A DNA stretch of 64,000 nucleotides from Ailanthus altissimus (Eukaryota > Streptophyta > Magnoliopsida > Sapindales > Simaroubaceae). Below, piece after piece: positions 25,299 to 57,492 of the stretch (position 1 is its first letter; each line of letters opens with the position of its first letter). Made by a program: the position numbers and the translations under genes. Location of the stretch: the NCBI GenBank assembly GCA_946807835.1, contig OX327683.1:32423001-32487000 (forward strand), in the 5' to 3' direction. The notes below the pieces were generated by a model, which ran no database searches, was not told where the DNA came from, and was given only the letters and a program-made list of their open reading frames with translations.

Positions 25299-29969
<4,671 letters not shown>

Positions 29970-36804: not shown

Positions 36805-36867
36805 ATGGCAGACATAGATTTTGATTTCTTAGTGAACAAGTATAATTCATTGGTACTCTAGGGTAAT
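36805..36867 (+). pseudogene. LINE ORF1 start (fragment 1 of the interrupted LINE)
   Basis: A frame beginning MADIDFDFLVNKYNSLVL resembles the start of plant LINE ORF1 proteins of the DUF4283 type. It is cut by the solo LTR at 36868 and resumes at 38302 once one copy of the GTAAT duplication is removed. Confidence 0.5.
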
Positions 36868-38301
36868 TGACAGGACCCGATCGGAGCCCTCCTCGAGAAT
36901 CGAGGCGGATCCTGTGATGACATGTGACTAACATACTCTTTACTTATACATATGATACAATGAGGATACCTGTCTCAACAAAAAGTGTACATATGTACTC
37001 CAATATACAAAAACATATACAAATACACAGATTGAGACACTTATGTAGTTATGCGTGTCGTTAGCCAACCTCAAAATGTGATGACTGTATCACATTACAC
37101 AAATTTTTGTGACAACTTGAGAAAAATAGAAAAAATGGTGAGCTTGTGGTTCAGTGAGTGGACATAATCTGAAAATATTATATACTTTATATGTATTGTA
37201 CACGTATAAATCTGTAAGATAAAATAATCATGAAACTGTATACTGGGGATCTAAAAATCTGTGCAGTTGTCATAAAATTTGTGTTAAAACTAAAATCATA
37301 ACATAATACTAGAGATTTAAAAATCTGAAAGCGCAAACTATCATAAAATCTGAAAGCGCAAACTATCATAAAATCTATTATCAAGCTGAATATATGTAAT
37401 ATAGCTCTGAAAATATGTACTACATATATATTGAAAACCACACCAAACTTGTACCCGGGAAAAAACTGGTCTAACCTGATAGAGTAACTCACGCACAGGC
37501 AGAGCGGGGGATCTGAGCTGGTCTAACTTGGCGGAATGCTACATCGCTCGGGTAGAGCAAACTAAACTGGTCTAACACATGCGTAGAACAACTATACTAA
37601 AGGGGAGGGTACGCATATAGTGGTTCAAAAACTACTACTATATAGTTTTATGAAAGCATAATTTTTCTAAAATAAATATTTCTTTACTGAACGTAATCGT
37701 AAATTATATTATAATAAATTGTAAAATATTTTTGAATATACTAAATAGTATAAATATTTATCTGTCTAAAATAAATTATAATTAAATCTGATAACACGTA
37801 ATTTAATTATAATTTGTTGTATTAAAAACATATAAAATATATATAGTTATCAATTTACAAATCCTGAGCTGGGTTTGGATTCTGAGATCTACCTGCTATC
37901 AACACACCTTTTATATCATAGGGTGTAAAAATACATCATTGGTACCGATATATATTATAAATATTCTAATATCATAAAATTATTACCTGCTAAATCACTG
38001 GGTATAAATCTAACTATCCAAATAAATTTTCTAAAATTTCTTTTTTTTTTCTTTTCTTTCTCTTTCTCTTCTTCTTTCTTTTCAGTTTCTTCCTTTCTCC
38101 ATTTCTTTTTTCTTTCTCATTCTTTTTTCATTTCCTCTTTCTCTTCGGCTTTCTCTTCTTTATTTCTTTCTTTGTTTCAACTTTTCTTCTTCTTAAACCA
38201 AAAAAACAAAACAAACATGTTTTATATATAACGGCCACCGCTTACTCTTTTTTTCTTATTTTTATTTTTTTTAATTTTACCACCAAACGTATTACAGTAA
38301 T
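36863..38301 (-). mobile_element. Solo LTR of the outer Gypsy family, minus orientation, TSD GTAAT
   Basis: The element (36868-38296, 1,429 bp) is bounded by TGACAGGACCC at one end and TATTACA at the other. It is flanked by identical GTAAT repeats at 36863-36867 and 38297-38301. It aligns in reverse to the LTRs at 38835-40335 and 56032-57492, including the CCTCGAGAATCGAGG palindrome at one end and a long pyrimidine tract (38040-38200) that is the complement of the GAAA-rich tract in the plus copies. No internal region remains. Confidence 0.88.
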
Positions 38302-38834
38302 GGTATTCCAATTGTTTCTTTGAACTCTTCTGCGTATTAAACATGTTGCATTATCAATTGTTGGAAAAGTTTTCTACGCTCGTCCTATTAATAGGAAGTA
38401 GTTCATTACTACTATGAAGAGAATTTGGCGCACTATTGAATCGTCTGCAGTAGAATCTGTGAGGCAAGGCCGCAACATGTTTGTCTTCACCATTCATTCA
38501 GAGGTGGATCAGCAAATGTTAGTAGAGGGTCCTTGATCATTTAATAACTGCCTTTTGATGTTATAGGAACCTCATGGTTTAGGTCAGTTATAAAACCTGA
38601 AATTTAACTCGGTTTCTTTCTGGGTTCAGCTTCATCAGTTCTTGTTTTCTTTATAAATGTCAAAGCATGTCACTTGATTGAATCTATACTTGGTAAGGCT
38701 GAAGAAGTTGATACTAGTATTTTTGGTGAATGTTTAGGGCATTATCTTTGTATCGGGGTCAATTTAGATATTTTAATTCCTTTAAAGCCAGGCCTGGGTG
38801 TTTATGTGTTGGAGTATAAAGAATTGGCGATTAT
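38302..38834 (+). pseudogene. LINE ORF1, DUF4283-like region (fragment 2)
   Basis: Broken frames read VGKVFYARPINRK, TMKRIWRTIESSAVESVRQGRNMFVF and, further on, VDQQMLVEGP followed by PLKPGLGVYVLEYKEL. This is the pattern of the DUF4283 domain that precedes the zinc knuckle in plant LINE/retroelement proteins. It ends at the ATTAT target duplication (38830-38834) of the Gypsy element and continues at 57498. Confidence 0.6.
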
Positions 38835-38931
38835 TGTCATACACGTGTATAGTAACGTGTATGTTTGGTGTGAATAAGCAAAAAAAAAAAAGAAAAAGAA
38901 GAATAAAATATATATTATATTAAGCAGTGGC

Positions 38932-38968
<37 letters not shown>

Positions 38969-40335
38969 TTGTTTTGCTTTCTTCATTTAAGAAGAAAGAA
39001 TCGAAACCGAAAAAGAAACGAAACAGAGAAAGAAGGAGAAAAGAGAGAAAAGAAAGAAAGGAAGAAAAAGAGAAAAGAAAAGAAGAAGAAAAGAAAGGAA
39101 AAAGAGAAAGGAAGAAAAGAAATTGAGAAGAGAAAGAGAAAGGAAAAAGAAAAGAAAAGAAAAAAATAGAAAATTTTAGGAAATTAGTTGGGTAGTTAGA
39201 TTTATACTCAGTGTTTCAACGGGTAATAGTTTTATGATATTAGAATATTTATATTTTAATATTTATAATTCATATCGGTACTAATAATGTATTTTTACAC
39301 CCTATGATATAAGAGGTGTGCCGATAGCGGATAGATCTCAGAATCCAGACTCAGCTCAGAATTAGTGCACTTTTGTGAGTGGATAACTATATATATATAT
39401 TTTATATATTTTTAATACAGCCAATTATGATTAAATTACGCGTTGTCAGATTTAGTTATGATTTATTTTAGACAGATAAATATTTATACTATTTAGTATA
39501 TTAAAAAATATTTTAGAATTTATTATAGTATAATTTATGATTTTGTTCAATACAAAAATATTTATTTTAGAACAATTATACTTTCATGATATTATATAGT
39601 AGTAATTTTTAAACCACCATATGCGTACCCTTCCTTTTAGTGTAGTTGCTTTGCGCATGCGTTAGACCAGTTTAGTTTGCTCTGCCAGAGCGATGTAGCA
39701 TTCCGCCGAGTTAGACCAGCTTAGATCCCCCGCTCTACCTGTGCGTGAGTTACTCCGCCAGGTTAGACCAGATTTTCTTCGGGTACAAGTTTGGTGTGAT
39801 TTTTAGTATATATGTAGTACATGTTTCCAGAGCTATGTTACATATATTCAACTTGATAATAGATTTTATGATAGTTTGCATTTTCAGATTTTCAGATCCC
39901 AGTATTATGTCATGATTTTAATTTTAGCACAGATTTTATGACAGCTCATACTTTCAGTATAAGTTTATTGACTACTCAGTATACAGTTTCTTGATTATTT
40001 TATCATACAGATTTATACGTGTATAATACATATAAAGTATATAATATTTTTAGATTATATTCACTTACTGAGTCACAAGCTCACCATTTTTTCTATTTTT
40101 CCCAGGTAGTCACAGGAATTCGTACAGTGTGATATAGTCATCACATTTTGAGGTTGGCCCATGACACACATAGTTGCATAAGTGTTTAGTCTGTATATTT
40201 GTATATGTTTTTGTACGCCTTTTATTGAGGTAGGTAGCCTTAGTGTATCATATGTATGAGTAAAGAGTATATTAGTTACATGTTATCACAGGATCTGCCT
40301 CGATTCTCGAGGAGGGCTCGGGTCGGGTCCTGTCA
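38835..40335 (+). repeat. 5' LTR of the outer Gypsy element
   Basis: 1,501 bp, TGTCATACACG to GGTCCTGTCA. It contains a TA microsatellite (about 38936-38966) and a long GAAA-rich purine tract (about 38990-39165). Near the end is the palindrome CCTCGATTCTCGAGG. It differs from the 3' LTR at many sites, including length differences in the microsatellites, so the insertion is not recent. Confidence 0.92.
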
Positions 40336-40338
40336 GTT

Positions 40339-40350
40339 TGGTATCAGAGC
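40339..40350 (+). other. Primer binding site of the outer Gypsy element (initiator tRNA-Met)
   Basis: TGGTATCAGAGC, complementary to the 3' end of plant initiator methionine tRNA, starts three bases after the 5' LTR. This is the usual primer of plant Gypsy elements. Confidence 0.9.
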
Positions 40351-40436
40351 GTGGTTTTAAATTCTGTAGACTAGTACATGATACATGTATGTTAGAGATG
40401 TCATTAATGAATTGTTGCATTTTATAGATTTTCATC

Positions 40437-43400
40437 ATGCGTCCACGTGGCCGACCTCGCACGAAACTTGTGGCTGAACTGAGAGCTCCCTTAGTATCAG
40501 ATAGAATGAAGGAATCTATTAGAGAGGAAGTAGCTGAGTCAGTTCCCCTTGTACCCATACCTCAAACTCAGCCTGATCTTAATGTAGATGAGACATACCC
40601 TCAGTCAGTGCCACAACCTGTGATATAGCCTACACAGGGACAGCCTGATAGACCTGCCTTAGAGCAATCCATAGATAGATTGGCTTAGTTAGTTACAGTT
40701 GCAGTGGAGAGACAAACACAGGGACGACCTAAGAGAGAGAACACAATAGAGCGTGTTCGTAGTTTGGGGGTAGAGAATTTTTCAGGCACTACAGAGCCAG
40801 CTGATGCAGAGTTATGGTTGACTAGAGTAGAACAGATATTTGATGTTATGAGATGTACTGATGATGAGAGGTTTCCTTTGCTACATTTTTACTTGAGGGT
40901 GAGGCATACCACTGGTGGAGATCAGTATCACGTAAATATGGAGGGGTGATTAGTTGGGCTGATTTTTGTAAAGAATTTAATGTTAAATTCTTTCCTATGG
41001 TTTACCAAGACATCCAGGCTAATAAGTTCTTTGAGCTAGAACAGGGATTGATGACAGTGGAGGAGTACGAGAACCGTTTTATAGAGTTATTGAGGTTCGC
41101 TTCTTATGCAATATAGAATGAGAGGGATAAATGTAAGAGATTTGAACAGGGCCTTAGAGGCAATATCAGGACAACAACTACAGCTATGGGGCACAGTGAT
41201 TTCAGTGAGTTGGTAGGGGATGCAATGGGAGTTGCGAGAAGCCTAGTAGAGGCACACAGAGCCCAGTCATTCAAGTAGAAACCAGGCCATGGTTGGTCAG
41301 TTGGTGGATCAAGTAGCAGTAGAGCACTTGGAGGAGAGATATCCTATACAAGGTATTTTGGTAAACAACGGTATGGTCAGAGCCCTATACTATCAGGAGG
41401 ACAGAGACAGAGTCCTAGTCAGAGTTTTGTACCTCCATCTGTTGGAAGCAACATAGGGAGTCAGAGGCCCCGAGGTGGTAGCTAGTTAAGTAGTAGTGCT
41501 AGCATGAGAAGGTACCCTCAGTGTTTCATTTGTGGAAAGAGTCATGAGGGACAGTGTCTGAGAGGTTTTAGAGGTTGTTACCATTACGGACAAGCTGGAT
41601 ATTTGAGGAGAGATTGCGCTCATCTTTTTCGGAGTAGCAGCTTAGTATAGAGTATAGCTTATCAGGGTTTTCAAGGTGGCAGTGGCAATACTCAAAGACA
41701 TGAAAGATCTTAGATAGGAGAGCCTATCTCTAGTACTGGTGTACAACCTAGAGCTTTAGGAGCTAGTTGAGATCCACAGAAGGGTCAGTCAGGCCGATCT
41801 CGTAGCCAGACACGTGTATTTGCTTTAACTCAGCAAGAGGCACAGGCTACTCCAGATGTTGTTACAGGTATGCTGATTATTTTTTACTGAGAGGCCCATA
41901 TTTTAATTGATCTGGGCTCTATGCATTCTTTTATTTCCCGTATTTTTACTGTGCATGCGGATAGAGTGTTAAAACCACTAGATTGTAATTTGGTGATAGC
42001 CACACCGGTTGGAGAATTATTATTGACTAAGAATGTATTTCGGGGTTATGTTATCAAAGTGGGTAGTAGTGAGATGGTAGCAGATTTAATTCCTCTTACT
42101 ATACATGATTTTGATGCAATGTTTGGGATGGATTGGTTAGCTAATCACCATGCTACTATAGACTATTTTCGAAAGGAGGTTATATTCAGAAGACACGGAG
42201 AGCTTGATATTATATTTTGTGGAGAGCGACGAGTTCTTCCATCATGTGTTATATCTGCTATGACAGCTAAACGGTTGCTCAGAAAATGATATCCAGTCTA
42301 TTTAGCACATGTTATTGATATCAGAGTCAATGGGGTTACATTAGAAGATATTCCGGTGGTAAGAGATTTTTCAGATGTATTTCCTAAAGATCTTCCAGGC
42401 TTACCACCAGATAGAGAGATTGATTTTGGTATTGATTTAGTTCCAGACACAACTCCTATCTCCAAGACACCATACAGAATGGCTCCCTTAGAGTTAAAAG
42501 AATTGAAGACTCAGTTACAAGAATTGGTAGATAAGGATTTCATCAGACCTAGTATATCACCATGGGGAGCACCAGTATTATTTGTTAAAAAGAAGGATGG
42601 AACTTTGAGGCTATGCATTGATTATCGGGAGCTAAATAAAGTCACTATACGCAACAAGTATCCACTCCCTCGCATTGATGATTTATTTGATCAGTTACAT
42701 GGTGCGAAGGTTTTCTCAAAGATCAATCTATGATCAGGGTATCATCAGTTAAAGATTAGAGATACTAATGTGGCTAAGACTACTTTCAGAATTCGATATG
42801 GGCATTATGAGTTTTTAGTAATGCCATTTGGGTTGACTAATGCTCCAGCTGCATTCATGAACCTTATGAATAGGGTATTTCGTCCCTATCTTGATCGATT
42901 TGTTATAGTTTTTATTGATGATATTCTTGCGTATTCACGGAGTACAGAGGAGCATGCAGAGCATTTGAAGATAATGTTACAAATTTTGAGGAATAAACAG
43001 TTATATGCTAAGTTTAGTAAATGTCAGTTCTGGCTAGATAAAGTTACATTTCTAGGCCATGTGATATCAGCAGATGGCATTTATATGGATCCTCAGAAAA
43101 TTGAAGCTGTGGTAAATTAGGAGCGACCAGCTAGTATGATAGAAATTAGAAGTTTTCTAAGTCTAGCGGGTTATTATCGGAGATTTGTTAAAGATTTCTC
43201 TAAGATTGCTGCACCACTTACAAAGTTGACCAGAAAAAATGTAAAGTTTATGTGGACTGATGAATGTGAACGTAGTTTCCAAGAACTGAAGAAGAGATTG
43301 ACTTCAACTCCTATTCTCACTCTTCCATCTGGCACCGAAGGATTTATAATTTACAGTGATGCTTCTAGACAGGGATTAGGTTGTGTATTGATGCAACATA

Positions 43401-43482
43401 GTAAGGTGATAGCTTATGCTTCTAGGCAGCTTAAGAAGCATGAGTTGAATTATCCAACCCATGATTTAGAATTGACAGCAGT
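40437..43482 (+). pseudogene. Gypsy gag-protease-reverse transcriptase-RNase H (N-terminal part), broken
   Basis: Open frames in order: gag start MRPRGRPRTKL and the capsid-like ENFSGTTEPADAELWL block. A CCHC knuckle lies near 41520-41620 (CFICGKSHEGQC, second copy degraded to CYHYGQAGY). The protease motif DLGSMHSFIS has its usual DSG changed to DLG. RT includes [38 protein letters not shown]-like [15 protein letters not shown] and the FIDDILAYS catalytic box. The RNase H start is [16 protein letters not shown]. Stops split it: for example the R of KIDLRSGYHQ became TGA at about 42732 and the W of VVNWERP became TAG at about 43120. Not translatable as a polyprotein. It is cut at 43482 by the inner element. 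Confidence 0.9.
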
Positions 43483-46191
43483 TGTAGTAACCAGTATCCA
43501 TAACCGGTAAGAATATGTATATTTATATATATAAATATACGTATTTTATTTGTATGTGGGTGATCCTTGATTTATATATTGTTATTAGTAGTGTTTTTAT
43601 AGGTTAAGGATATACTATTAGTATTGGGTTTATTTGCAAGACTTTGGAATTATTTTAGGGACCAAATTGTTATACTTTGAAAGTTTTGGGGGTGAATTCG
43701 TAAATACCAAAAATTAACCACTTAGTATAAAAATACACTTTTAAAAACCCTAATTCTCTCATTTTTGTCGAGCTACCCATTTTTAGAGAGAGAAGAGAGA
43801 AATAAAAAAGAGAAGAAAGAGAAGAAGGAGAAGAAAAAGAAGAAGAAATTGGAATTTTGGATTTTAAGAGGTATATCATACGTATTTCTCAATTTATTGG
43901 TATTAATTAAGTTAATTCCTTTAAGTTTTGATTTCTGAAAATATGTATAATTGAGGATTTGTTGTGTATTTCGTAAGATCATATGAGAATTGATGATGAT
44001 CTATAAGATAGTTTGATAAATCATGATGAATTATAGAATTTCTGCTGGATAACCTCTTGATCTAGGAATTTTATAAATTGTTTTGATTCGATTCTGATTT
44101 TGAATTTTGAGTATATGAAATTAGACATGTTAAGGATCATCTGAGACTTTGAATCGATTGAAAATTCTGGAAATTGAATTTATAGTGAATTTACCAAAAT
44201 GACCCTGAAATTATGGAAATTTCCTATGTGAACAGTATAATACAGTGACGAACAATGTTTGTCCTACTGAATGATCTTCAAAAATTACGAATTTGTGGAA
44301 TATGATAAGTTTATATGTCTAATATGATATACTCGGAATTGAGAATTTAGATCAATGTGGTTGAAATGTTATGATTTTCTAAAGTATATCCGCTCATTAC
44401 AGTATTTGATTAACAGATTTTTAAAGCTATGGAATAAAATAGTTTTAAAATATTTTTGGCAGTGATTTGGAAGAGAAATATTTATCATGGACTGAGATAT
44501 GTGTTAAGAGTAATTATGTGGTAGTTTTATAATTTTTGAGTTAGTATATGATTTTATAAAATTGGGAGATTGAATACTGTTCAGTAAGTATCTTGATCCT
44601 GTCAGGTTTGTAGTTTGGATTCGATGGTGTGTATGGAATGGATTGTGTAGGAAATTTGATATAATGTTCATATATAAGAAGGATATATGAATCAAGAATG
44701 GTATATTCTGATTTCGGAGTAATTGGACATCATTTGATGTATTAGAAATTTTTGTTAAGTGTAAGTGGTCAGAATGACAGGTTTTGAGAAACCAAATATT
44801 TAGACCAATTTGATGTGAATTGTGTATAATTTTGTAAGCTATTTAAAGTATTTTGTGTGAATTGTGAGGCTTATGAAAGGATTAATCTCCATTGATAGGT
44901 TAAGGAGATTTAAGCCTTGTAGCTGAAAGTGTTAAGAGGTAAGTATACTAGACTTACTACTGGAATCACAATAAACATAATAATTGTTTTGTATGATTTT
45001 GTAAATGGGGTTAAGAATATGTTTATGATATGTCAAAGTATATTTTGATATGAAATGTGAATATATGTTTATGAATGTGAGCATTGACATTGAGCATGGA
45101 CATACATGTGTTTTTGAAAGTGAGCTTTCCAAAATAAGATGCGTTTAACAAAGAAAGCTTTTGAAGTGTAATATGTCCATGAGAAATATTTTGTGATTTG
45201 AGGGTACTTGAACTCACTGTTAACTTAGTAGGCATTTTATGTGATTTGTGGAGCCTTTATGTGTGGCCTTTCCTTTGGGATTGGTATATGTTATGTGTTC
45301 CGTATGTAGGGAGGATCCTATTGGTACCTAAAGGAAGTGTGAGTCATCACATTCGTGTGGTGGCGTATTGGTACACGTGAGAGGACTCACCGATGATCAG
45401 GGTGAGGGTTTGGCTTTTACCTTCGGGCATAAGCATTATATATGTGTTATTCAAGACCTCACTTGTACTATTCCTCTCATACGGTATGTCACCTACGAGT
45501 GACATTTGGCTCATTATGTGATATGTGATATGTAAGTCCTACTAAGTAGTAGTCGAGTAATGGTATTCCTATTATGTGTTTTGAAAGAATGTGTAAGCGC
45601 TTACATGATATGTGATTTGATAAGATTATGATTTTGATTGATCACAGCATATCATACATATGCATTGTGTACATATATGTATTTGTATTTGATATATGAA
45701 AAACTAGTATGCTTACTGAGTTTTATACTCATTATAGTTTATGGTGATTTCAGGTAAATAAGGTACATGTGTGCTTAGCGGATTTGGCAAGGCTTCTGCT
45801 GTTCCTTGGGTTCCCTAAGTTGTTAGGTTGCTAAGTGTTTTATTTGGGGACACGTGGGATAAGATATTTGATTTGTCCCTAGTGAATAAATACCTATGTA
45901 TTATTTTATTGTGTGGTTGGATTTAGTTTAAGTTTCACCAAGTGTAGTAATGGATTGATTTTAAGTAAGAATTTGCAATGAATATATTCTGGGCTTCCGG
46001 TAACAAAGTTGCTACTGGTGACGTAGTAGAGTGTTAATCTCTGAGAAAACTCTGCGTATCTCCGGTTTAGTAATTGTCCAGTCATAATTCAATTGCTATA
46101 ATTCTGAAAGAAATTAAAATGAATGTTTAAGTATTATTGAATGAATGTAAGTGATGTCGTGTGTCAGATCTGTTGGGTCTGGGGCGTGACA
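43483..46191 (+). repeat. 5' LTR of the inner element
   Basis: 2,709 bp. Every stretch compared with the 3' LTR is identical at a constant offset of 6,509 bases. It includes a GA-rich tract (43780-43855). Its last base directly precedes the internal region. Confidence 0.93.
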
Positions 46192-46199
46192 GCTTTTAT

Positions 46200-46211
46200 T
46201 GGTATCAGAGC
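46200..46211 (+). other. Primer binding site of the inner element (initiator tRNA-Met)
   Basis: TGGTATCAGAGC lies 8 bases inside the 5' LTR end. It is the same primer type as in the outer element. Confidence 0.88.
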
Positions 46212-46344
46212 TAAGATATGATTCTGTAGACTTTTAAGTGTCGAGTCAAGGGAACCGAGCAGATGCCAAATCCTTAGGATTGTATTTGTAGCTTTGTTGT
46301 GTAAAAGTTTGACATATTCCTTAAATTTTGTATGATTTTGTGAA

Positions 46345-46636
46345 GATGACACAGTATCCAAGAGCTGCTAAGATTGTTGTTGTTGTGGATAATGGTACAT
46401 TGTGGATCTTAATGCTACCATTTAGATTTTCTTTTAAGTTATGACTAATATGCTTAGTAAGAGTGATGTTGAATATCTTATAATGATAATTTGCATGTGA
46501 TAGAGCAAATTGAGATAATTTTCTCAATGACAAAATATAGAGAAGTAGAGTATTGAAGACATCAATTGAAACAACTTTTATTGAAAAGGAAAACAACAAC
46601 ACAACAACAATAGCAGCAACAAAAATACAATAGAGG
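46345..46636 (+). pseudogene. gag remnant of the inner element
   Basis: A sense-strand frame starts MTQYPRAAKIVV soon after the PBS and decays quickly. Near 46505-46630 it reads EQIEIIFSMTKYREVEY, then KRKTTTQQQQ, a basic/Gln-rich end as found at the back of Gypsy gag proteins. Stops interrupt it. The homology is suggestive only. Confidence 0.4.
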
Positions 46637-47302
46637 CTACGGAGTGAGATTTAAGTCTATTTTGCGCTTCTTCTGACTGTCATGAGTAGACCAATCTAAC
46701 TGATGCAATGTTGGATTAGACAGAGGAATAAAAGACTGCAATTGATCAATCAGTTGATCAACAGTTGGAGCTGAAATAAGAATCCGTCGTGCTAGAAGTG
46801 GGATGAATTGTGTTCCCGCTGCATAGTCAAGAAAAGATATCAACCCGTCGTAAAAACCATTAACATTTAACAAACCAATGGGTTTTTGGTGGATTTGTAA
46901 TTGTGCCCATGAGACAATTTGAAAAATTTCCTCCAAGGTCCCAAAACCTCCTGGTAGAGCTATGAAAGCATCCACATGCCTAAGCATTTGAGCCATTCGT
47001 TCGTGCATAGATGAGACTTGTAACTCATCCCCAACTGTTTTTCCTACAATATTTTCAATAGCTAGAGGTTTTGGAATGATACCCAAAACTCGACTACCTT
47101 TATTGTATGCAGCTTTTGCCACAGACCCCATTAGCCCTCGGTTACCTCCTCCATATACTAAATGTATATTTCGCTCAGCTAATACCTTACCAAGATTTTC
47201 TGCAACTTTTGTAAACTCTTCAGTATTCCCAGGGTTAGATCCACAAAAGACACAAATTTTTGTGAATCGACGAGCTGAGGTTTCCTTCATTGTTATGCTC
47301 AC
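46637..47302 (-). CDS. LOG: LONELY GUY (LOG) cytokinin riboside 5'-monophosphate phosphoribohydrolase, retroelement-borne
   Basis: Intact 221-aa ORF without introns. LOG enzymes cleave cytokinin riboside 5'-monophosphates to release active free-base cytokinins in the cytosol and nucleus. Family signatures: KICVFCGSNPG (16-26), YGGGNRGLMGSVA (50-62), RVLGIIPKPL (71-80), SMHERMAQM (98-106), ALPGGFGTLEEIF (115-127, the diagnostic PGGxGTxxE), and PIGLLNVNGFYD. Arg102, Thr122 and the EE pair are kept. Met103 replaces the Lys usual in MHxRKA, and Asn replaces Asp in LLNVDG. Plant LOG genes normally have several introns, so their absence suggests capture through RNA. It lies antisense between the LTRs, 585 bases 3' of the unknown gene. 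A TATA box sits 49 bp upstream of the start. The divergent but open frame suggests selection after capture; whether it is expressed is unknown. Confidence 0.93.
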   Translation of the reverse strand: MSITMKETSARRFTKICVFCGSNPGNTEEFTKVAENLGKVLAERNIHLVYGGGNRGLMGSVAKAAYNKGSRVLGIIPKPLAIENIVGKTVGDELQVSSMHERMAQMLRHVDAFIALPGGFGTLEEIFQIVSWAQLQIHQKPIGLLNVNGFYDGLISFLDYAAGTQFIPLLARRILISAPTVDQLIDQLQSFIPLSNPTLHQLDWSTHDSQKKRKIDLNLTP

Positions 47303-47350
47303 CCTAATCTTTGAATATTTTCGAGTTTGTATAAGGATGCAATAATAATG

Positions 47351-47358
47351 TATTTATA
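47351..47358 (-). promoter_or_regulatory. TATA box of the retroelement-borne LOG gene
   Basis: On the minus strand CTCTATAAATACA lies 49 bp upstream of the LOG start codon. It is a near-perfect plant TATA box, and the same CTCTATAAATA string precedes the neighbouring antisense gene. Confidence 0.65.
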
Positions 47359-47887
47359 GAGAAACAAATTGATAATAGCTGTGGAGCATATGTGTAAGTA
47401 TGTTCAAGTATATATTTTTCTCGATTCTTGTGAGGTAAAACAAAAAAAAAAAGAGAATGAGTTTTACTTTATCATTTTATAAGGGACAATAGGTCGCAAA
47501 ATCTTGAGTAAATATATGTTGATATGTAAGTGTGATAAAAATTGTGTCGGAAGTGTGATAAGTTAGGTAAGATAATTAAGAAAAGTCAATAAAGGCCTAT
47601 TTCATAGATTTAGGGACTTAGCCATTTTGGCACTAATGGTCGACAATACATCAATGACTTGAAGACTTTTTGAGCTAACAATTGGACTTTGGACATGAGG
47701 CCAAATTAACTTTATTAATTACAAAGATTTTGTGGTCTTAACATTAATTTTTGGCCGATAGATTAAAAGCAGATATGAAGAAAGATAAAGCACACTTGAC
47801 AAAAAGATAAAGCAGTAATCAGTCTCTCCTTGATGTGATAGAGCAACACGGATCTAGTTTCTGTGAAAATAGAAACAGCAATGTAGG

Positions 47888-49081
47888 TCAAAATGAGTCT
47901 CCTTGGTCGCTTTCATCTGTGTCGTATCCGTGAGAGAGAAACTTATGGAGTTGTTGTTCCCATACATTGAATGAGGACTCTGGCGGAGTGGAATGTGGGT
48001 CTACCATATCTTGATCTTCTCCAGGTGAGCTGGTCTGGATGAGGGATGTGCTGGCTTCCTCTTGGATTTGGGTGTCGGTTGGATAAGGTTGAGAGTCTTG
48101 AAAGAGGGATAAGTCAAGATTGGGTTGGTGTTGGTCAAGTTCTGTCGGGACAACTGGCTGAGATTGAGTAGGTTCTGTCGGGACAACTGGCTGAGATTGG
48201 GTAGGTTCTGTCGGGACAGTTAGCTGAGGCCATTGGTGAAGGTTATCCATTGCTTGTCTGTATCTGGCATAATAAGTCATGTTTGGGATATGGTGATGAT
48301 GAGTAGAGTAATCTGTATTTCTGAGATGTGAAAGATGATATTTTTGTCTTTGTTGGAATTTGAGTATATTGGCAAAATTCAGGTCTTCTGTAAAGTCAGC
48401 TTCAACTTGTTCCCAAGGTGCAGCATCTTCTGGGGAGATCCAAACAGACGGAGGAATTATTTGATTTTCCTGAGCAAGAATTCTTTCAAGTTCTCTCTTT
48501 TGCTGAATTACTTCTTCAGGCCAGAGCTTAATTGATCCCTTTAGTGAAAGGGTAAATGTGAAGTAATCCTTAACAGTGGGGTAATAATGAATCTCGTGAT
48601 CTGAAATAATCATACCCTTCCGTTGGAGAAGTAAGACTGACCAAAGATGTTGTCTGGGGACTGCAGCATTTGTGTTGTTTGCAATCATGTATTGAAATTT
48701 AGTTATCCACCATGTCTTTGGGTAAAACCATTGGAGAAAAATCAGGGCTGGATGATCTTCATCACATTTTTCTAATTTTTGGAGGGTTCTAAGTAATGGG
48801 AATTCCATGGCGATTGTATACAGATCCAACAGGTACCATAACAAGTAAAGGACAGGTTTGGACCATTGGGAAAATGGGAAAAAAGAGTGCAGGTGAAAAA
48901 AAGGGTATTCTAAGTTGAACAAAGGGCCACCAAGAACTGTGAGGCCGTGTTCTTGGACTGCTAAGATGGCGTAGTGTCTGATGAATTCTTTGGCACGGGA
49001 ATGGAGTGTTCTGGTTTTGATTAGGTCTGGAAATTGTGGTGGAGAAAAAGGAACATGAGGAGTTATGATAATGGGATTCAT
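47888..49081 (-). CDS. Unrecognised 397-aa protein encoded antisense in the inner LTR element
   Basis: Start chosen at 49081 (MNPIIITPHVPFSPPQFPDL) because it follows a TATA box by 63 bp; an in-frame upstream extension to 49348 would precede that box. The N-terminal half is rich in aromatic and Trp residues (HLHSFFPFSQWSKPVLYLL, FLQWFYPKTWWITKFQYM, PRQHLWSVLLLQRKGM) and looks like a folded domain. The middle has WPEEVIQQKRELERILAQEN and VWISPEDAAPWEQVEADF. The C-terminal third is low complexity, with tandem VPTEPTQSQPV repeats, Gln/Pro-rich sequence and an acidic end (DTDESDQGDSF). No signal peptide, zinc knuckle, protease or RT motif is visible. I do not recognise the family. It may be a captured host gene, or an additional ORF of retroelement or pararetroviral origin. 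It is intact and co-oriented with LOG. Confidence 0.75.
   Translation of the reverse strand: MNPIIITPHVPFSPPQFPDLIKTRTLHSRAKEFIRHYAILAVQEHGLTVLGGPLFNLEYPFFHLHSFFPFSQWSKPVLYLLWYLLDLYTIAMEFPLLRTLQKLEKCDEDHPALIFLQWFYPKTWWITKFQYMIANNTNAAVPRQHLWSVLLLQRKGMIISDHEIHYYPTVKDYFTFTLSLKGSIKLWPEEVIQQKRELERILAQENQIIPPSVWISPEDAAPWEQVEADFTEDLNFANILKFQQRQKYHLSHLRNTDYSTHHHHIPNMTYYARYRQAMDNLHQWPQLTVPTEPTQSQPVVPTEPTQSQPVVPTELDQHQPNLDLSLFQDSQPYPTDTQIQEEASTSLIQTSSPGEDQDMVDPHSTPPESSFNVWEQQLHKFLSHGYDTDESDQGDSF
48150..48225 (-). repeat. 33-bp tandem repeats coding VPTEPTQSQPV
   Basis: Two nearly identical 33-bp units and a third degenerate unit lie in frame within the unknown ORF. The unit length keeps the reading frame, so the number of copies can vary without breaking the protein. 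Confidence 0.85.
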
Positions 49082-49143
49082 TATGAAGATGGTAAGAAGG
49101 TTGGTTTTCTTTATTGCTAGAAAAGTGATTATAAGGTTTAGGC

Positions 49144-49151
49144 TATTTATA
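49144..49151 (-). promoter_or_regulatory. TATA box of the unknown antisense gene
   Basis: CTCTATAAATAGCC on the minus strand, 63 bp upstream of the start codon at 49081. Confidence 0.6.
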
Positions 49152-49369
49152 GAGTTTTGTGAAAGAAAATCAATAATCGTTTTGTCCTTTTTTTTTACGT
49201 GGATGACGTTAAAGGAATAGTTGAAAAAAAAAACCATATTTGCCATCGTAGTAATTGTGCTAGTGGAATCATTTCTGTTTGAAACTGAGCATATTAAAAT
49301 AAAATAAAAAGCAGACATGTCAATCTCAATGAAAAAAATGATGTCCAATAAGGTGGATTATTTTTTTAA

Positions 49370-49991
49370 GAGTTAGAGTAAGAGATATAATGTTGAGATC
49401 TATAGTTTAAGAATCAATTGAATTAAAGGTTTTTTTATTTTATTTTATTGAAGTTGATTTTTGATCATTTAAGATAATGCCTTCAATATTCTGATTTGAA
49501 TGACAACTTAGTTGCGTAGAAATGCTACATTGTATTTTGAATGATATCAAGGTAGTGAATGATATTATGACGTATGAGTATATGTTGAAGGGATTAAAAT
49601 TTTCAGAGGAGTTAAGAATTTTATTTAAGAGATTAGTATGGGTATTCTACATCTATATTATTCTTTAATGAATAAAAGGTGAAGTGTATAGATGCACATT
49701 ATATATTGAACGAATGAGAGAAAAGAATAAAAATATGTGTGTATAATTTTATAAGTCCATAATGTGTGTCATGTGTTTATTTTATGGATGAATGTTTCGT
49801 ACTTCTCTCACAGACTAAGTTATGAGCAAATCTTATATACCAAAAAGATTGCTTTGTAAATGTTTTATGAATAAACCATACTGTTGAAAAGGCAACTTGG
49901 GAATGAGAATAAGAAATGAGATCTAAGTATCCTCATCTATGTGCTTAAGTTATGAATTTCGAGGACGAAATTCTTATAAGGAGGGGAGAAT
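49370..49991 (+). pseudogene. Gypsy pol 3'-end remnant and polypurine tract of the inner element
   Basis: Sense-strand traces of a polyprotein end are visible near 49885-49960: VEKATWE, EMRSKYPHL and, after a stop, VMNFEDEILIRRGEL. This matches the tail of Tekay/Del-type polyproteins and parallels the outer element at 55920-56025. A PPT (AAGGAGGGGAGAA) directly precedes the 3' LTR at 49992. The rest is AT-rich with no clear frame. Confidence 0.65.
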
Positions 49992-52700
49992 TGTAGTAAC
50001 CAGTATCCATAACCGGTAAGAATATGTATATTTATATATATAAATATACGTATTTTATTTGTATGTGGGTGATCCTTGATTTATATATTGTTATTAGTAG
50101 TGTTTTTATAGGTTAAGGATATACTATTAGTATTGGGTTTATTTGCAAGACTTTGGAATTATTTTAGGGACCAAATTGTTATACTTTGAAAGTTTTGGGG
50201 GTGAATTCGTAAATACCAAAAATTAACCACTTAGTATAAAAATACACTTTTAAAAACCCTAATTCTCTCATTTTTGTCGAGCTACCCATTTTTAGAGAGA
50301 GAAGAGAGAAATAAAAAAGAGAAGAAAGAGAAGAAGGAGAAGAAAAAGAAGAAGAAATTGGAATTTTGGATTTTAAGAGGTATATCATACGTATTTCTCA
50401 ATTTATTGGTATTAATTAAGTTAATTCCTTTAAGTTTTGATTTCTGAAAATATGTATAATTGAGGATTTGTTGTGTATTTCGTAAGATCATATGAGAATT
50501 GATGATGATCTATAAGATAGTTTGATAAATCATGATGAATTATAGAATTTCTGCTGGATAACCTCTTGATCTAGGAATTTTATAAATTGTTTTGATTCGA
50601 TTCTGATTTTGAATTTTGAGTATATGAAATTAGACATGTTAAGGATCATCTGAGACTTTGAATCGATTGAAAATTCTGGAAATTGAATTTATAGTGAATT
50701 TACCAAAATGACCCTGAAATTATGGAAATTTCCTATGTGAACAGTATAATACAGTGACGAACAATGTTTGTCCTACTGAATGATCTTCAAAAATTACGAA
50801 TTTGTGGAATATGATAAGTTTATATGTCTAATATGATATACTCGGAATTGAGAATTTAGATCAATGTGGTTGAAATGTTATGATTTTCTAAAGTATATCC
50901 GCTCATTACAGTATTTGATTAACAGATTTTTAAAGCTATGGAATAAAATAGTTTTAAAATATTTTTGGCAGTGATTTGGAAGAGAAATATTTATCATGGA
51001 CTGAGATATGTGTTAAGAGTAATTATGTGGTAGTTTTATAATTTTTGAGTTAGTATATGATTTTATAAAATTGGGAGATTGAATACTGTTCAGTAAGTAT
51101 CTTGATCCTGTCAGGTTTGTAGTTTGGATTCGATGGTGTGTATGGAATGGATTGTGTAGGAAATTTGATATAATGTTCATATATAAGAAGGATATATGAA
51201 TCAAGAATGGTATATTCTGATTTCGGAGTAATTGGACATCATTTGATGTATTAGAAATTTTTGTTAAGTGTAAGTGGTCAGAATGACAGGTTTTGAGAAA
51301 CCAAATATTTAGACCAATTTGATGTGAATTGTGTATAATTTTGTAAGCTATTTAAAGTATTTTGTGTGAATTGTGAGGCTTATGAAAGGATTAATCTCCA
51401 TTGATAGGTTAAGGAGATTTAAGCCTTGTAGCTGAAAGTGTTAAGAGGTAAGTATACTAGACTTACTACTGGAATCACAATAAACATAATAATTGTTTTG
51501 TATGATTTTGTAAATGGGGTTAAGAATATGTTTATGATATGTCAAAGTATATTTTGATATGAAATGTGAATATATGTTTATGAATGTGAGCATTGACATT
51601 GAGCATGGACATACATGTGTTTTTGAAAGTGAGCTTTCCAAAATAAGATGCGTTTAACAAAGAAAGCTTTTGAAGTGTAATATGTCCATGAGAAATATTT
51701 TGTGATTTGAGGGTACTTGAACTCACTGTTAACTTAGTAGGCATTTTATGTGATTTGTGGAGCCTTTATGTGTGGCCTTTCCTTTGGGATTGGTATATGT
51801 TATGTGTTCCGTATGTAGGGAGGATCCTATTGGTACCTAAAGGAAGTGTGAGTCATCACATTCGTGTGGTGGCGTATTGGTACACGTGAGAGGACTCACC
51901 GATGATCAGGGTGAGGGTTTGGCTTTTACCTTCGGGCATAAGCATTATATATGTGTTATTCAAGACCTCACTTGTACTATTCCTCTCATACGGTATGTCA
52001 CCTACGAGTGACATTTGGCTCATTATGTGATATGTGATATGTAAGTCCTACTAAGTAGTAGTCGAGTAATGGTATTCCTATTATGTGTTTTGAAAGAATG
52101 TGTAAGCGCTTACATGATATGTGATTTGATAAGATTATGATTTTGATTGATCACAGCATATCATACATATGCATTGTGTACATATATGTATTTGTATTTG
52201 ATATATGAAAAACTAGTATGCTTACTGAGTTTTATACTCATTATAGTTTATGGTGATTTCAGGTAAATAAGGTACATGTGTGCTTAGCGGATTTGGCAAG
52301 GCTTCTGCTGTTCCTTGGGTTCCCTAAGTTGTTAGGTTGCTAAGTGTTTTATTTGGGGACACGTGGGATAAGATATTTGATTTGTCCCTAGTGAATAAAT
52401 ACCTATGTATTATTTTATTGTGTGGTTGGATTTAGTTTAAGTTTCACCAAGTGTAGTAATGGATTGATTTTAAGTAAGAATTTGCAATGAATATATTCTG
52501 GGCTTCCGGTAACAAAGTTGCTACTGGTGACGTAGTAGAGTGTTAATCTCTGAGAAAACTCTGCGTATCTCCGGTTTAGTAATTGTCCAGTCATAATTCA
52601 ATTGCTATAATTCTGAAAGAAATTAAAATGAATGTTTAAGTATTATTGAATGAATGTAAGTGATGTCGTGTGTCAGATCTGTTGGGTCTGGGGCGTGACA
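49992..52700 (+). repeat. 3' LTR of the inner element
   Basis: 2,709 bp, identical to the 5' LTR in all stretches compared, ending GGCGTGACA immediately before the GCAGT duplication. Confidence 0.93.
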
Positions 52701-53131
52701 GCAGTAGTATTCGCCTTAAAGATTTGGAGACATTATCTATATGGTGTTACATGTCAAATCTTCACTGATCACAAAATTTTGAAGTATTTGTTCACACAGA
52801 AAGATCTGAATCTGAGACAACGGAGATGGTTAGAGTTAATAAAAGATTATGACTGTACGATTGACTATCATCTAGATAAGGCGAATGTGATAGCAGATGC
52901 ACTCAGCAGGAAGTCTTCTAGCTCTATTGTTTATTTAAGAGTGACTTATCTTCCATTGTTAGTTGAATTAAGATCTATGGGGGTTGAATTGTCTGTAGAC
53001 AAGTCTGGAGTCCTTTTAGCACATTTTCAATTTAGGCCTATGTTGATTGATCAGATTCGAGAAATGCAAGATCAGGATCTTAATTTAGTTAAACTTAAGC
53101 AAGAAGTAAAGAATGGAATGCGAACTGATTT
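52701..53131 (+). pseudogene. Outer Gypsy RNase H, continuation after the inner insertion
   Basis: Removing the inner element and one GCAGT copy joins LELTAVV directly to [12 protein letters not shown]. The frame goes on through [24 protein letters not shown] and [11 protein letters not shown], the conserved end of Gypsy RNase H. It runs to the GATTT duplication at 53127-53131. Confidence 0.9.
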
Positions 53132-54514
53132 TGATAGGACCCGACCCGAGCCCTCCTCGAGAATCGAGGCAGATCCTGCGATGACATGTGACTAACATAC
53201 TCTTTACTCATACATATGATATAATGAGGCTACCAGCCTCTACAAAAAGTGTACACATGTGCTCCACTATACAAAACATATATAAATACACAGACTGAGA
53301 CACTTATGCAGCTATGCACGTTGGCCAACCTCAAAATGTGATGACTGTATCACACTGCACAATTCTTGTGACAACCTGGGAAAAAAATAGGAAAATGGAA
53401 AAAAGGGTGAGCTTGTGGCTCAGTGAGTGGACATAATCTGAAAATATCATATATTTTATATGTATTGTACACGTATAAATCTGTATGATAAAATAATCAT
53501 AAAACTGTATACTGAGTAATCAATAAACTTGTACTGAAAATATGAACTGTCATAAAATCTGTGCTAAAATTAAAATCATGACATAATACTGAGATCTGAA
53601 AATCTGAAAGCGCAAACTATCATAAAATCTATTATCAAGCTGAATATATGTAACATAACTCTGGAAACATATACTACATATATATACTGAAAACCACACC
53701 AAATTTGTACCCGGGGAAAATTTGGTCTAACCTGGTAGAGTAACTCACGCACAGGCAGAGCGGGGGATCTGAGCTGGTCTAACCCGGCGGAATGTTACAT
53801 CGCTCGGGCAGAGCAAACTAAGTTGGTCTAACGCATGCTCAGAGCAACTACACTAAAGGGGAGGGTACGCATATGGTGGTTCAAAAACTACTACAATATA
53901 ATATCATGATCATAATTATTCTGAAATAATTATTTCTGTACTGAACATAATTATAAACTGTACTATAATAAATTCTAAAATATTTCTGAATATACTAAAT
54001 AGAATAAATATTTTTGTCTAAAATAAATCATAATTAAATCTGATAACGCGCAATAAAATCATAATTGGCTGTATTAAAAATATATAAAATATATATAGTT
54101 ATCCACTCACAAAAGTGCGCTAATCCTGAGCTGGGTCTGGATTTTGAGATCTACCCGCTATCGGCACACCTCCTATATCATAGGGTGTAAAAATACATCA
54201 TTAGTACCGATATGTATTATAAATATTAAAATATAAATATTCTAATATCGTAAAACTATTACCCGCTAAACCACTGGGTATAATTCTGACTACCCAAACT
54301 AATTTCCTAAAATTTCCTATTTATTTTTTTTTTCTTCTTTTTCATTCTCTGTTTCTTTCTCCTTCCCGGTTCCTTTTCTTCATTTCTCTTTTTCCTTTCT
54401 TTTTTCTTTTCTTTCTTTTCCCTCTTTTCTCTTTCTCTCGACTTTCTCTTAATTCTTTCTCTGTTTCGTTTCTTCTTCTATTTTAAGTTCTTTCTTCTTA
54501 AATGAAGAAAGCAA

Positions 54515-54552
<38 letters not shown>

Positions 54553-54637
54553 CGGCCACCGCTTCATTTCTTTTTTCTCTCTTTTTTTTTTTCTGCCACC
54601 AAACTTTATATATATACAACACGTGTATTACAGATTT
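53127..54637 (-). mobile_element. Solo LTR of the outer Gypsy family inside the outer Gypsy element, TSD GATTT
   Basis: 53132-54632 (1,501 bp) is an LTR of the same family as the host element but inverted. Flanks are perfect GATTT copies at 53127-53131 and 54633-54637. Removing it joins ARG-Thr-Asp to a Leu-Thr-Leu-Lys-Ala-Asp-Gly frame, restoring the expected RNase H-integrase linker. No PBS, PPT or internal sequence is left. Confidence 0.92.
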
Positions 54638-55953
54638 AACATTGAAAGCTGATGGGACATTAGTTATAGGTAACAGACTTTGTGTTCCGAATAACTCAGA
54701 GTTAAAGAAGCAGATTTTAGAAGAAGCTCACAGCTCAGCTTATGCTATGCATCCTAGCAGCACTAAAATGTATTGTACTTTGAGAGAACATTACTGGTGG
54801 CAAGGTATGAAAAGAGAGATTGCAGAGTTTGTCTCACTGCCTGATTTGTCAGCAGGTTAAAGCAGAACATTAGAGGCCAGCAGGATTATCTCAACCACTT
54901 TCAGTTCCTAAATAGAAGTGGGAACATATCACCATGGACTTTGTTGTTGGGCTTTCTCGTACTCGAAGGGGTCATGATAGTATTTGGGTGATTGTTGATC
55001 AACTCACAAAGTTTGCTCATTTTCTGCCTTATAAGATTTCATACTCATTAGATAGGCTAGCTCATTTGTATGTGAGTGAGATTGTGAGTGAGATTGTACG
55101 ATTACATGGGGCTCTAGTGTCCATCGTATCAGATAGAGACCCTCGATTTACTTCTAGATTCTGGCATAGCTTACAGAAGGCATTAGGCACTAAGCTAAAC
55201 TTTAGTACAGCTTTTCATCCTCAGACAGATGGGCAGTCGAAGAGAACTATACAGATATTGAAGGATATGCTCAGAGCTTGTATGTTGCAGCTTAAGGGTA
55301 ATTGGGATGATTATTTACCATTGATGGAGTTTGCATATAATAATAGTTATCAGTCTAGCATTCAGATGGCACCGTATGAGGCTTTATATGGAAGAAAATG
55401 CAGAACTCCAATTTGCTGGGATGAGGTTGGAGAAAGAAAATTATTGGGTCCGAAGATTATTCAAACCACTAGTGAGAAGATCAGTATTATTAGAGACAGA
55501 CTCAAGGCAGCTCAAGATAGACAAAAGAGTTATGCAGATAAACACCGTGGACAGCTTGAGTTTATAGTAGGAGACAGAGTCTTCTTACGGATCTCACCAT
55601 GGAAGGGTGTGCTTCGTTTTGGGAAACAGAAAAAATTAAGTTCTAGATATATTAGGCTATATGAGATTCTAGAAAGAGTTGGTGTGGTTGCGTACCACTT
55701 AGCATTACCACCTGAGTTGTCACGCATTCATAATGTGTTTCATGTTTCTATGTTGCGAAAGTATATACTTCACCCTTCTCACATTCTAGATACTCAGCTA
55801 GTTCAGTTGAGGACAGACTTGACTTATGACGAGGAACCTGTTCAGATAGTGGACTATCGCCAGCAAGTACTACGTAATAAGACTATACCGCTAATTAAAA
55901 TCCTATGGAGGAATCATACAGTGGAAGAGGCTACATGGGAACGAGAGGATTAG
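54638..55953 (+). pseudogene. Outer Gypsy integrase and chromodomain-like C-terminus, broken
   Basis: It begins with the HHCC zinc-binding region (LKADGTLVIGNRLCVPN, EEAHSSAYAMHPSSTKMY). Near 54830 a frameshift breaks the CLICQQ motif, and a TAG follows. The core runs MDFVVGLSRTRRGHDSIWV (first Asp), SDRDPRFTSRFW (second Asp) and TDGQSKRTIQ, where the third acidic residue of the DDE triad (normally QSER) is Lys. Then NWDDYLPLMEFAYNNS and the C-terminal IHNVFHVSMLRKY, with a chromodomain-like end closing at WERED. With a stop, a frameshift and a lost catalytic Glu, it cannot support integration. Confidence 0.9.
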
Positions 55954-56015
55954 ATAAGAGTTCAGTATCCTCATTTATTTCAGACAAGTATGTGAATTTC
56001 GAGGATGAAATTTTT

Positions 56016-56031
56016 TTAAGGAGGGAAGAAT
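56016..56031 (+). other. Polypurine tract of the outer Gypsy element
   Basis: TTAAGGAGGGAAGAAT directly precedes the 3' LTR start TGTCATACACG at 56032. Confidence 0.85.
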
Positions 56032-57492
56032 TGTCATACACGTGTATAGTAACATGTATGTTTGGTGTGAATAAGCAAAAAAAAAAATAAGATGAATAAA
56101 ATATATATATTATATTAAGCGGTGGCGTTTTATATATATATATTTGTTTTGCTTTCTTCGTTTAAGAAGAAAGAATCGAAATAGAAAAAGAAACGAAATA
56201 GAGAAAGAAGGAGAAAAGAAAGAAAGGAAGAAAAAGAGAAAAGAAAAGAAGAAGAAAAGAAAGGAAAAAGAGAAAGGAAGAAAAGAAACCGAGAAGAGAA
56301 AGAGAAAGAGAAAGAAAAAAAAAAGAAAAGAAAAAATAGAAAATTTTAGGAAATTAGTTGGGTAGTTAGATTTATACCCAGTGTTTCAACGGGTAATAGT
56401 TTTATGATATTAGAATATTTATAATTCATATCGGTACTAATGATGTATTTTTATACCCTATGATATAGGAGGTGTGTTGATAGTGGATAGATCTCAGAAT
56501 CCAAACTCAACTCAGGATTAGTGCACTTTTGTGAGTGGATAGCTATATATATATATTTTATATATTTTTAATACAGCCAATTATAATTAAATTATGCGTT
56601 ATCAGATTTAGTTATGATTTATTTTTAGACAGATAAATATTTATACTATTTAGTATATTAAAAAATATTTTAGAATTTATTATAGTATAATTTATGATTT
56701 TATTCAATACAAAAATATTTATTTTAAAACAATTATGCTTTCATGATATTATATAGTAGTAGTTTTTGAACCACCATATGCGTACTCTCCCTTTTAGTGT
56801 AGTTGCTCTGCGCATGCGTTAGATCAGTTTAGTTTGCTCTGCCCGAACGATGTAGCATTTCGCCGGGTTAGACCAGCTTAGATCCCCCGCTCTACTTGTA
56901 CGTGAGTTACTCCGTCAGGTTAAACCAGATTTTCTCCAGGTACAAGTTTGATGTGATTTTCAGTATATATGTAGTACAGTTTCCAGAGCTATGTTACATA
57001 TATTCAACTTGATAATAGATTTTATGATAGTTTGCGCTTTCAGATTTTCAGATCCCAGTATTATGTTATGATTTTAATTTTAGCACAGATTTTATGATAG
57101 CTCATACTTTCAATACAAGTTTATTGACTACTCAGTATACAGTTTCTTGATTATTTTATCATACAGATTTATACGTGTATTATACATATAAAGTATATAA
57201 TATTTTCAAATTATATCCACTCACTGAGTTATAAGTTCACCATTTTTTTTATTTTTCCTAGGTTGTCACAGAAATTCGTACAGTGTGATATAATCATCAC
57301 ATTTTGAGGTTGGCCCATGACACACATAACTGCATAAGTGTTTCAGTCTGTATATTTGTATATATTTTTGTACACCTTTTGTTGAGGCAAGTAATCTCAT
57401 TGTATCATATATATGAGTAAAGAATATATTAGTTACATATCATCGCAGGATCCGCCTCAATTTTTAAGGAGGACTCGAGTTGGGTCCTATCA
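56032..57492 (+). repeat. 3' LTR of the outer Gypsy element
   Basis: 1,461 bp, collinear with the 5' LTR but with many substitutions (for example GTAACATG against GTAACGTG near the start) and a shorter TA microsatellite. The end is mutated to GGTCCTATCA and the terminal palindrome is eroded. Confidence 0.92.

Follow-up and report, generated by a model that had tools for sequence, protein, structure and literature searches.

LOG-family (YgdH) domains have been detected in gypsy consensus sequences of Citrus sinensis and C. clementina and, with no filter applied, of Populus trichocarpa (PMC9289625). LOG in gypsy elements is therefore known, and the view taken in the initial annotation of the locus described here, that a retroelement carrying such a gene would be a new kind of host–element interaction, has to that extent been anticipated. 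Work by Steinbauerova et al. from 2011 is said to be in line with YgdH domains in gypsy elements. More generally, the functions of antisense extra genes in plant retroelements have been called yet unknown (PMC7264820). In CgLOG of C. glutamicum, Lys100 lies at the adenine site and Glu125 at the proposed prenyl site, and alanine changes at the AMP-contact residues, a list to which Glu125 does not belong, nearly abolish activity, S19A excepted (PMC4979012). Whether a wheat LOG forms iP or iPR is reportedly not predicted by its known binding and catalytic residues, and a C-terminal motif 8 has been described for land-plant LOGs (PMC11593424).

The locus analysed here lies in a 64,000-nucleotide stretch of the Ailanthus altissimus genome (the window) and consists of a retroelement (family A) with a LOG-like gene in antisense. 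The fold of its product is solved, the product bears a named motif whose partner is known, its history can be read from a tree, and near-identical copies are numerous; its role can therefore be put to a direct test.

Results

Anatomy and setting of the window element

Paired LTRs, a target-site duplication, a primer binding site (PBS) and a polypurine tract, the defining parts of an LTR retrotransposon, were all found in the window element (Table 1). Its two LTRs show no difference across 2712 aligned bases, which, with the GCAGT duplication located, bears out the original description of a LOG gene in antisense between identical LTRs flanked by one such duplication. That description had passed over the second antisense ORF, the absence of gag and pol, two TATA boxes and the insertion of the whole element within an older gypsy element. 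No gag or pol ORF appears between the LTRs in the ORF listing, where the only long ORFs are the LOG frame and one of 397 aa, both antisense; pol is represented by a degenerate end recognisable by similarity, and the window element is therefore a non-autonomous derivative. The final ~120 bases 5' of the 3' LTR are ~77% identical to the equivalent place in the surrounding gypsy element. This similarity of chromodomain end and polypurine tract, together with a PBS that we take to be of the initiator-tRNA-Met type, makes the element look chromovirus-like, no RT being present, and the lineage name chromovirus (Tekay/Del) may apply.

Table 1. Features of the window element and its setting, in window coordinates.
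Feature	Position	Strand	Remarks
Older gypsy element hosting the insertion	38833..57492	+	LTRs 38833-40335 / 56030-57492, 90% identical
Target-site duplication GCAGT	left 43478..43482, right 52701..52705		
5' LTR	43483..46191	+	TG...CA ends, 2709 bp; same sequence as 3' LTR
Primer binding site TGGTATCAGAGC	46200..46211	+	
3'UTR piece common to window element and Athila-like family B	46506..46587	-	
AATAAA 3' of LOG	46577..46582	-	
LOG-like gene	46637..47290	-	217 aa, single open frame, antisense to element
KKRK + IDLNLTP tail codons	46640..46672	-	basic patch and DLNxxP EAR-like motif
TATA box CTATAAATA of LOG	47351..47359	-	near end 61 bases before ATG
Second antisense ORF	47888..49081	-	397 aa
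TATA box CTATAAATA of 397-aa ORF	49144..49152	-	near end 63 bases before ATG
Degenerate pol end	49874..49994	+	chromodomain-tail-like by eye; ~77% identical to the surrounding gypsy element at its end
Polypurine tract AAGGAGGGGAGA	49978..49989	+	just 5' of 3' LTR
3' LTR	49992..52700	+	TG...CA ends

Nested insertions are suggested by further LTR-like copies, 82–87% identical to the LTRs of the surrounding element, which lie at 36867–38193 and 53131–54532 and occur in both direct and inverted order. Elsewhere in the window, ORFs resembling, by eye, a LIGHT-SENSITIVE SHORT HYPOCOTYLS (ALOG-domain) gene (204 aa; 12734–13348, +), arabinose-5-phosphate isomerase (22440–23105, +) and JmjC-demethylase exons (25299–26555, −) were seen, placing the window element in a repeat island close to genes.

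The LOG-like protein and its C-terminal tail

The open frame spans 46637–47302 (−) and contains PGGFGTLEE, as first annotated, but translation probably begins with the ATG at 47290, for a product of 217 rather than 221 residues; the closest database relative (P0001, 99%) begins at this same ATG. The protein matches Pfam PF03641 (E 1.4e-38) and TIGR00730 (182 bits, cut-off 96), and its best solved relative is Arabidopsis LOG3 (2a33), onto which its AlphaFold model (pLDDT 83.8, pTM 0.80) superimposes with a TM score of 0.93 (target-normalised; 0.75 query-normalised). It thus has the LOG fold along with both family matches. The NCBIfam equivalog NF058542 gives 121 bits against a cut-off of 300, below which the canonical grape LOG P0176 also falls (132 bits). 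A scan of IMG/VR returned four loci at 35–42% identity. Both catalytic residues, Arg99 and Glu122 in CgLOG numbering, are present in the window protein, whereas Met and Gln stand in place of the Lys100/Glu125 pocket pair, and because of this replacement we do not file the protein as a proven cytokinin-activating LOG. The naming of the locus as a hormone-activation gene accordingly holds for fold and catalytic residues and is weakened by the loss of two pocket residues that are invariant in 120 canonical LOGs.

At the C-terminus, the sequence DLNLTP conforms to the EAR motif, defined as LxLxL or DLNx(x)P (PMC9956375). Most element-type relatives carry LxLxL within their last 12 residues (97 of 120; DLNxxP in 1 of 120) and three basic residues in a row within the last 16 (99 of 120), while neither the EAR-like motifs nor such a basic run was found in any of 120 canonical LOG1/LOG3-type proteins, a set in which 94 are of 205–235 aa and some have odd ends; AtLOG8, added to this set, likewise lacks the EAR-like tail. 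For an alignment of the tail, eight of 121 element-type proteins, the window protein among the 121, were dropped as falling outside 205–235 aa and the 113 kept were clustered to 24 representatives below 80% identity. Twenty-two of these rows extend as far as the three tail Leu positions, where Leu stands in 22, 20 and 21 of them, and the x positions vary. Model pLDDT is below 50 at residues 201–217, which fits a free tail, as expected, and is no sign of binding. LxLxL is short and common, and the tail could serve some other role.

The substrate pocket changed within the element-type clade

Of 121 element-type proteins, 114 retain the two catalytic residues Arg99 and Glu122. The Lys100/Glu125 pair is KE in 120/120 canonical LOGs versus 14/121 element-type proteins, 106 of the latter having neither residue and one Glu alone. 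The tail motif accompanies the changed pocket: it occurs in 98 of 107 non-KE proteins versus one of 14 KE proteins, P0005 and P0108 being among the nine non-KE proteins without it. In a first tree, element-type rows form one side of a branch with 100/100 support (33 versus 16 rows), and a later tree, from which P0108 was excluded, shows this division again. When the later tree is rooted on canonical LOGs, KE rows without a tail come off first (P0026 and P0042 deepest), followed by P0007, which combines KE with the tail, and all 24 non-KE rows form a single clade (support 99/95). Because the non-KE rows are monophyletic and P0007 branches earlier, a single change of the pocket, later than gain of the tail, is the most likely course, an order that depends on the single row P0007. 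These replacements make a changed enzyme specificity of the element LOG fairly probable; the kept catalytic residues may possibly leave some hydrolysis, even cytokinin release.

Family A is amplified and has been moving very recently

We searched the genome (939,062,666 bases in 37 contigs), in which the window occupies contig 1:32423001–32487000, with the window LOG protein. All of the best 150 scored among 6243 first-look candidates, the window itself being one, are 97–100% identical, and four have an in-frame stop; the LOG frame thus recurs at ≥97% in 149 other places among those scored. Each of 20 loci fetched at 9.9 kb contains LOG (CDS identity 98.2–99.7%) together with the region of the second ORF and LTR sequence that matches, and the LOG frame has a stop codon in a single locus, L030. 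LTR pairs could be compared in 17 of 21 elements (four have no measured pair): six pairs are without mismatch, 16 of 17 differ at 0–9 of ~2700 sites, and the remaining one differs at 22. Perfect 5-base target-site duplications were read by hand in 12 of the 17, the match in the other five having ended short of the LTR end. Family A has been moving very recently. A search based on the LTR scored the best 40 of 3787 candidates.

Ten pairs of LOG copies lie 6.4–6.7 kb apart in the same orientation (for instance C10:13839925/13846479 and C30:19952927/19959641), and a further pair (C5:4491951/4498501) was seen among matches to a canonical query. This spacing is as expected for tandem elements with a common LTR, a form shown by L013, and at C14:13059505–13072578 three LTRs follow in succession.

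The second antisense ORF and two putative antisense promoters

The 397-aa ORF has no Pfam match (E up to 1) and no NCBIfam match, and its assignment to a known domain was rejected for this reason; its one relative is P0121 (99%), and its model has a pLDDT of 33. An internal LDLSL is uninformative, such a motif being frequently expected by chance. PF04195, the Retand-type TRP28 profile, is matched by neither antisense ORF (E up to 1). An MNP start with more than 350 aa is found in 10 of 21 copies; L016, L023 and L024 have frames of 395–473 residues without the MNP start. A 33-bp tandem repeat lies within the ORF (window 48139–48237), and the 11-residue difference between copies with 397 and 386 aa equals one repeat unit.

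A TATA box, CTATAAATA, precedes each antisense ORF (Table 1). The count of this motif is ordinary (three occurrences in 64 kb on both strands against 2.0 expected; at least three in 31 of 100 shuffles) but its placement is unusual, since two of the three lie on the minus strand and precede the antisense ATGs by 61 and 63 bases. It is found before LOG in 20 of 21 copies and before the second ORF in 18 of 21, with one altered and two whose starts were not recognised, and it also precedes LOG in 10 of 12 family B loci. Counted from the LOG ATG, the motif starts at −69 in family A, at −73 in family B and at −61 in family C. This placement points to two putative antisense transcription units in family A.

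Selection on the LOG frame

Between families, dN/dS of LOG is 0.34 for A–B, 0.30 for A–C and 0.16 for B–C, with dS at 1.5, near saturation, in the last pair. Within family A, pN/pS is 0.071 among the 21 copies left after seven duplicate loci and broken frames were dropped, a value biased low because the copies had been picked by protein similarity. The corresponding figures are 0.344 for the 397-aa ORF in the 10 of 21 copies with an MNP start and more than 350 aa, and 0.81, from few differences, for LOG in family B (seven full frames of 12 loci). Catalytic positions are conserved among 25 diverse rows. The portrayal of the gene as recent, amplified and kept open agrees with these figures and with the near-identity of the scored copies; the mark named for a passive passenger had been one isolated copy whose dN/dS is near 1, whereas the search for further copies gave 150 scored ones and the comparison between families a dN/dS of 0.16–0.34. 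We regard the anatomy, amplification and selection of the family A LOG element as practically certain.

Single copies of families B and C carry LOG in sense, next to a viral-like gene

When the canonical LOG P0142 was used as query, the best 150 of 5729 candidates scored in Ailanthus were all single-frame at 48–52% identity and fell into several frame-length groups, with a stop in 17 of 150 (hand count); no canonical-exon-like match was found among them. Two of the families among these matches, B and C, were read in context in one copy each, with LOG in sense and downstream of pol in both. The family B copy has mutually identical LTRs of 1438 bp, a GCTAT target-site duplication, TGGCGCCGTTGCCGGGGA as PBS, a gag frame (PF03732, 7e-21) and a pol frame that encodes RT, RNase H and integrase; its order, all in sense, is gag, pol, a 182-aa ORF and LOG. 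The family C copy, read within 9.9 kb, has the same order with pol broken. From PBS and layout, we take both families to be Athila-like Ty3/gypsy. All three Ailanthus families of the element-type LOG clade seen in context are retroelement-borne.

Between pol and LOG lies a gene resembling those for plant-virus nucleic-acid-binding proteins (NABP) and carlavirus CRPs (L045:3792–4340 and L046:3854–4300). Its frame is open in the family B copy, and a stop breaks it in that of family C. The 182-aa ORF of family B matches PF05515 (Viral_NABP; 1.9e-7, 31.7 bits, cut-off 23) and scores 18.3 bits with PF01623, below the cut-off of 20.9. One piece of the family C gene matches both PF01623 (Carla_C4; 3.2e-7, 30.6 bits versus 20.9) and PF05515 (8.4e-6, 26.3 bits versus 23), and the second piece matches neither profile. 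Viral CRPs of this kind are described as silencing suppressors, and CVB p12 is cited as a transcription factor inducing hyperplasia (PMC12172455).

The LOG unit was very probably taken over from an Athila-like element

What families A and B have in common, at the thresholds used, is the LOG block only, running from the TATA box, with a gap, into the 3'UTR; the CDS is ~82% identical, and outside TATA box, CDS and 3'UTR there is no match. The TATA box would be missing from an mRNA, and its inclusion in the A/B block therefore makes transfer from an element, not mRNA capture, the likely source. The idea that this element had captured an RNA-derived host LOG does not fit a block that takes in the TATA box as well as some of the 3'UTR. 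Rather, family A very probably took the LOG unit, promoter included, from an Athila-like element, the direction being our reading of the comparison. The transfer would most likely have taken place at the level of DNA or genomic RNA, into antisense orientation. An ancient RNA-level capture of an intronless LOG by an ancestral element could still have come before.

Relatives outside Ailanthus

Among the 120 clusters listed, element-type relatives come from Reevesia, Xanthoceras, Populus and Paulownia, with Reevesia accounting for 38 of the 120, 172 member sequences and 15 chromosome labels (hand count). Copy number suggests that elements carry the Reevesia, Populus and Paulownia relatives. In Xanthoceras, the proteins P0002 and P0003, annotated as fusions, each join two LOG pieces via a stretch that shares 71% identity, across 34 residues, with the end of family B gag (E values 9e-12 and 1e-11), which fits an element origin there.

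Discussion

The reading that we prefer, at roughly even confidence, is that the element LOG may act as a nuclear, corepressor-recruiting accessory protein of the element, with cytokinin activation at most secondary. The LOG protein would be expressed from its own antisense promoter, the basic patch would bring it into the nucleus, where it would bind a nucleotide or an altered substrate, and the EAR motif would draw TOPLESS-type corepressors, shifting host transcription in favour of the element; silencing or defence genes would be the obvious guess as targets of repression. Recruitment through the EAR motif is, taken by itself, plausible at somewhat under even odds. A fuller scenario is one we put forward tentatively, as unlikely to be right in every part: a host hormone enzyme turned into a nuclear, nucleotide-sensing corepressor recruiter would have gained the tail, then lost the cytokinin pocket while keeping catalysis; it would have been paired, after pol, with a viral-type nucleic-acid-binding (silencing-suppressor-like) gene; and LOG with its promoter would then have been taken up by an unrelated non-autonomous element and amplified in antisense as a portable kit against host control.

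Retention of the LOG fold, the catalytic Arg and Glu and PGGxGTxxE, together with purifying selection between families, would suit an element LOG that is an ordinary cytokinin activator, the extra cytokinin favouring dividing cells in which the element can transpose; the NABP-like gene beside LOG in families B and C, with its resemblance to carlavirus CRPs of which one, CVB p12, induces hyperplasia (PMC12172455), could be read in the same way. In 106 of 121 element-type LOGs, however, neither Lys100 nor Glu125 is kept, and changes to alanine at AMP-contact residues, among which Glu125 is not counted, nearly abolish activity with the exception of S19A (PMC4979012). Ordinary cytokinin activation would moreover leave the added tail unexplained, and we consider it rather unlikely. 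Far less likely still is that LOG is an old retrogene copy hitch-hiking with no role for the element, even though in family A it is antisense inside an element without gag and pol, its 397-aa companion passes the full-length test in just 10 of 21 copies, and internal pN/pS in family B is 0.81 (seven frames). Against such a passenger stand the dN/dS of 0.16–0.34 between families, a CDS ~82% identical between A and B amid surroundings that, beyond TATA box, CDS and 3'UTR, are unmatched at the thresholds used, and the conservation in 25 diverse rows of the catalytic positions and, in 24, of the tail Leu.

It is also conceivable that a host gene family, annotated as LOGL10 in Populus, was picked up repeatedly by elements, tail and pocket having evolved for the host. 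Populus members are indeed named as a gene, Xanthoceras members are annotated proteins, and the deepest rows, P0026 and P0042, keep KE and are without a tail, as a host gene might be. Yet three of three Ailanthus families seen in context sit in LTR/gypsy sequence, the Reevesia relatives (38 clusters, 172 sequences and 15 chromosome labels among the 120 rows listed) are numerous, the canonical query in Ailanthus gave single-frame matches at 48–52%, none of them canonical-exon-like, throughout the best 150 scored, and gag-like sequence lies inside two Xanthoceras proteins; we judge a host origin of these features improbable.

Like the YgdH-bearing elements of Citrus and Populus, the window element has a LOG-family domain inside a plant Ty3/gypsy element; those are domain detections, with no discussion of orientation, tail, pocket, companion gene or transfer in the sections of the paper available (PMC9289625), whereas the Ailanthus LOG is antisense in an element without gag and pol. 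In the open-licence literature searched, we found no earlier report of the tail, the pocket loss, the pairing with an NABP-like gene or the antisense transfer. Retand, Grande and RIRE2 are gypsy elements that also have antisense ORFs in their internal region, with an own promoter reported for Grande, but there the ORFs follow pol, ahead of the 3' LTR, and code for TRP28 or products of unknown nature (PMC7264820, PMC11963269), while the window element is without pol and one of its ORFs belongs to an enzyme family. Extra ORFs of sunflower Athila and Tekay elements, which are of like lineages, have nuclear localisation signals and a suggested part in modulating RNA silencing, though the excerpted text mentions no LOG or viral-NABP domain (PMC11728184).

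A host-type enzyme domain has likewise been fixed and amplified in Phalaenopsis gypsy elements with an m6A RNA demethylase ORF, a different enzyme whose activity was shown in vitro (PMC9289625), the Ailanthus LOG being known from its sequence. With plant LOG enzymes the element LOG has fold, catalytic Arg and Glu and PGGxGTxxE in common; it differs in its single open frame, the lost Lys/Glu pair, the gained basic and EAR-like tail and its mobility, and if the pocket change alters its chemistry it would exemplify a hormone enzyme refitted by a mobile element. The likeness to EAR-bearing pathogen effectors that bind TOPLESS is that of a foreign agent's protein meeting a plant corepressor; for the effectors the interaction is reported (PMC8126959, PMC7446885), and in the element LOG it is the motif that is seen. 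Should the tail indeed recruit TOPLESS, retroelements would join pathogens in exploiting this plant corepressor.
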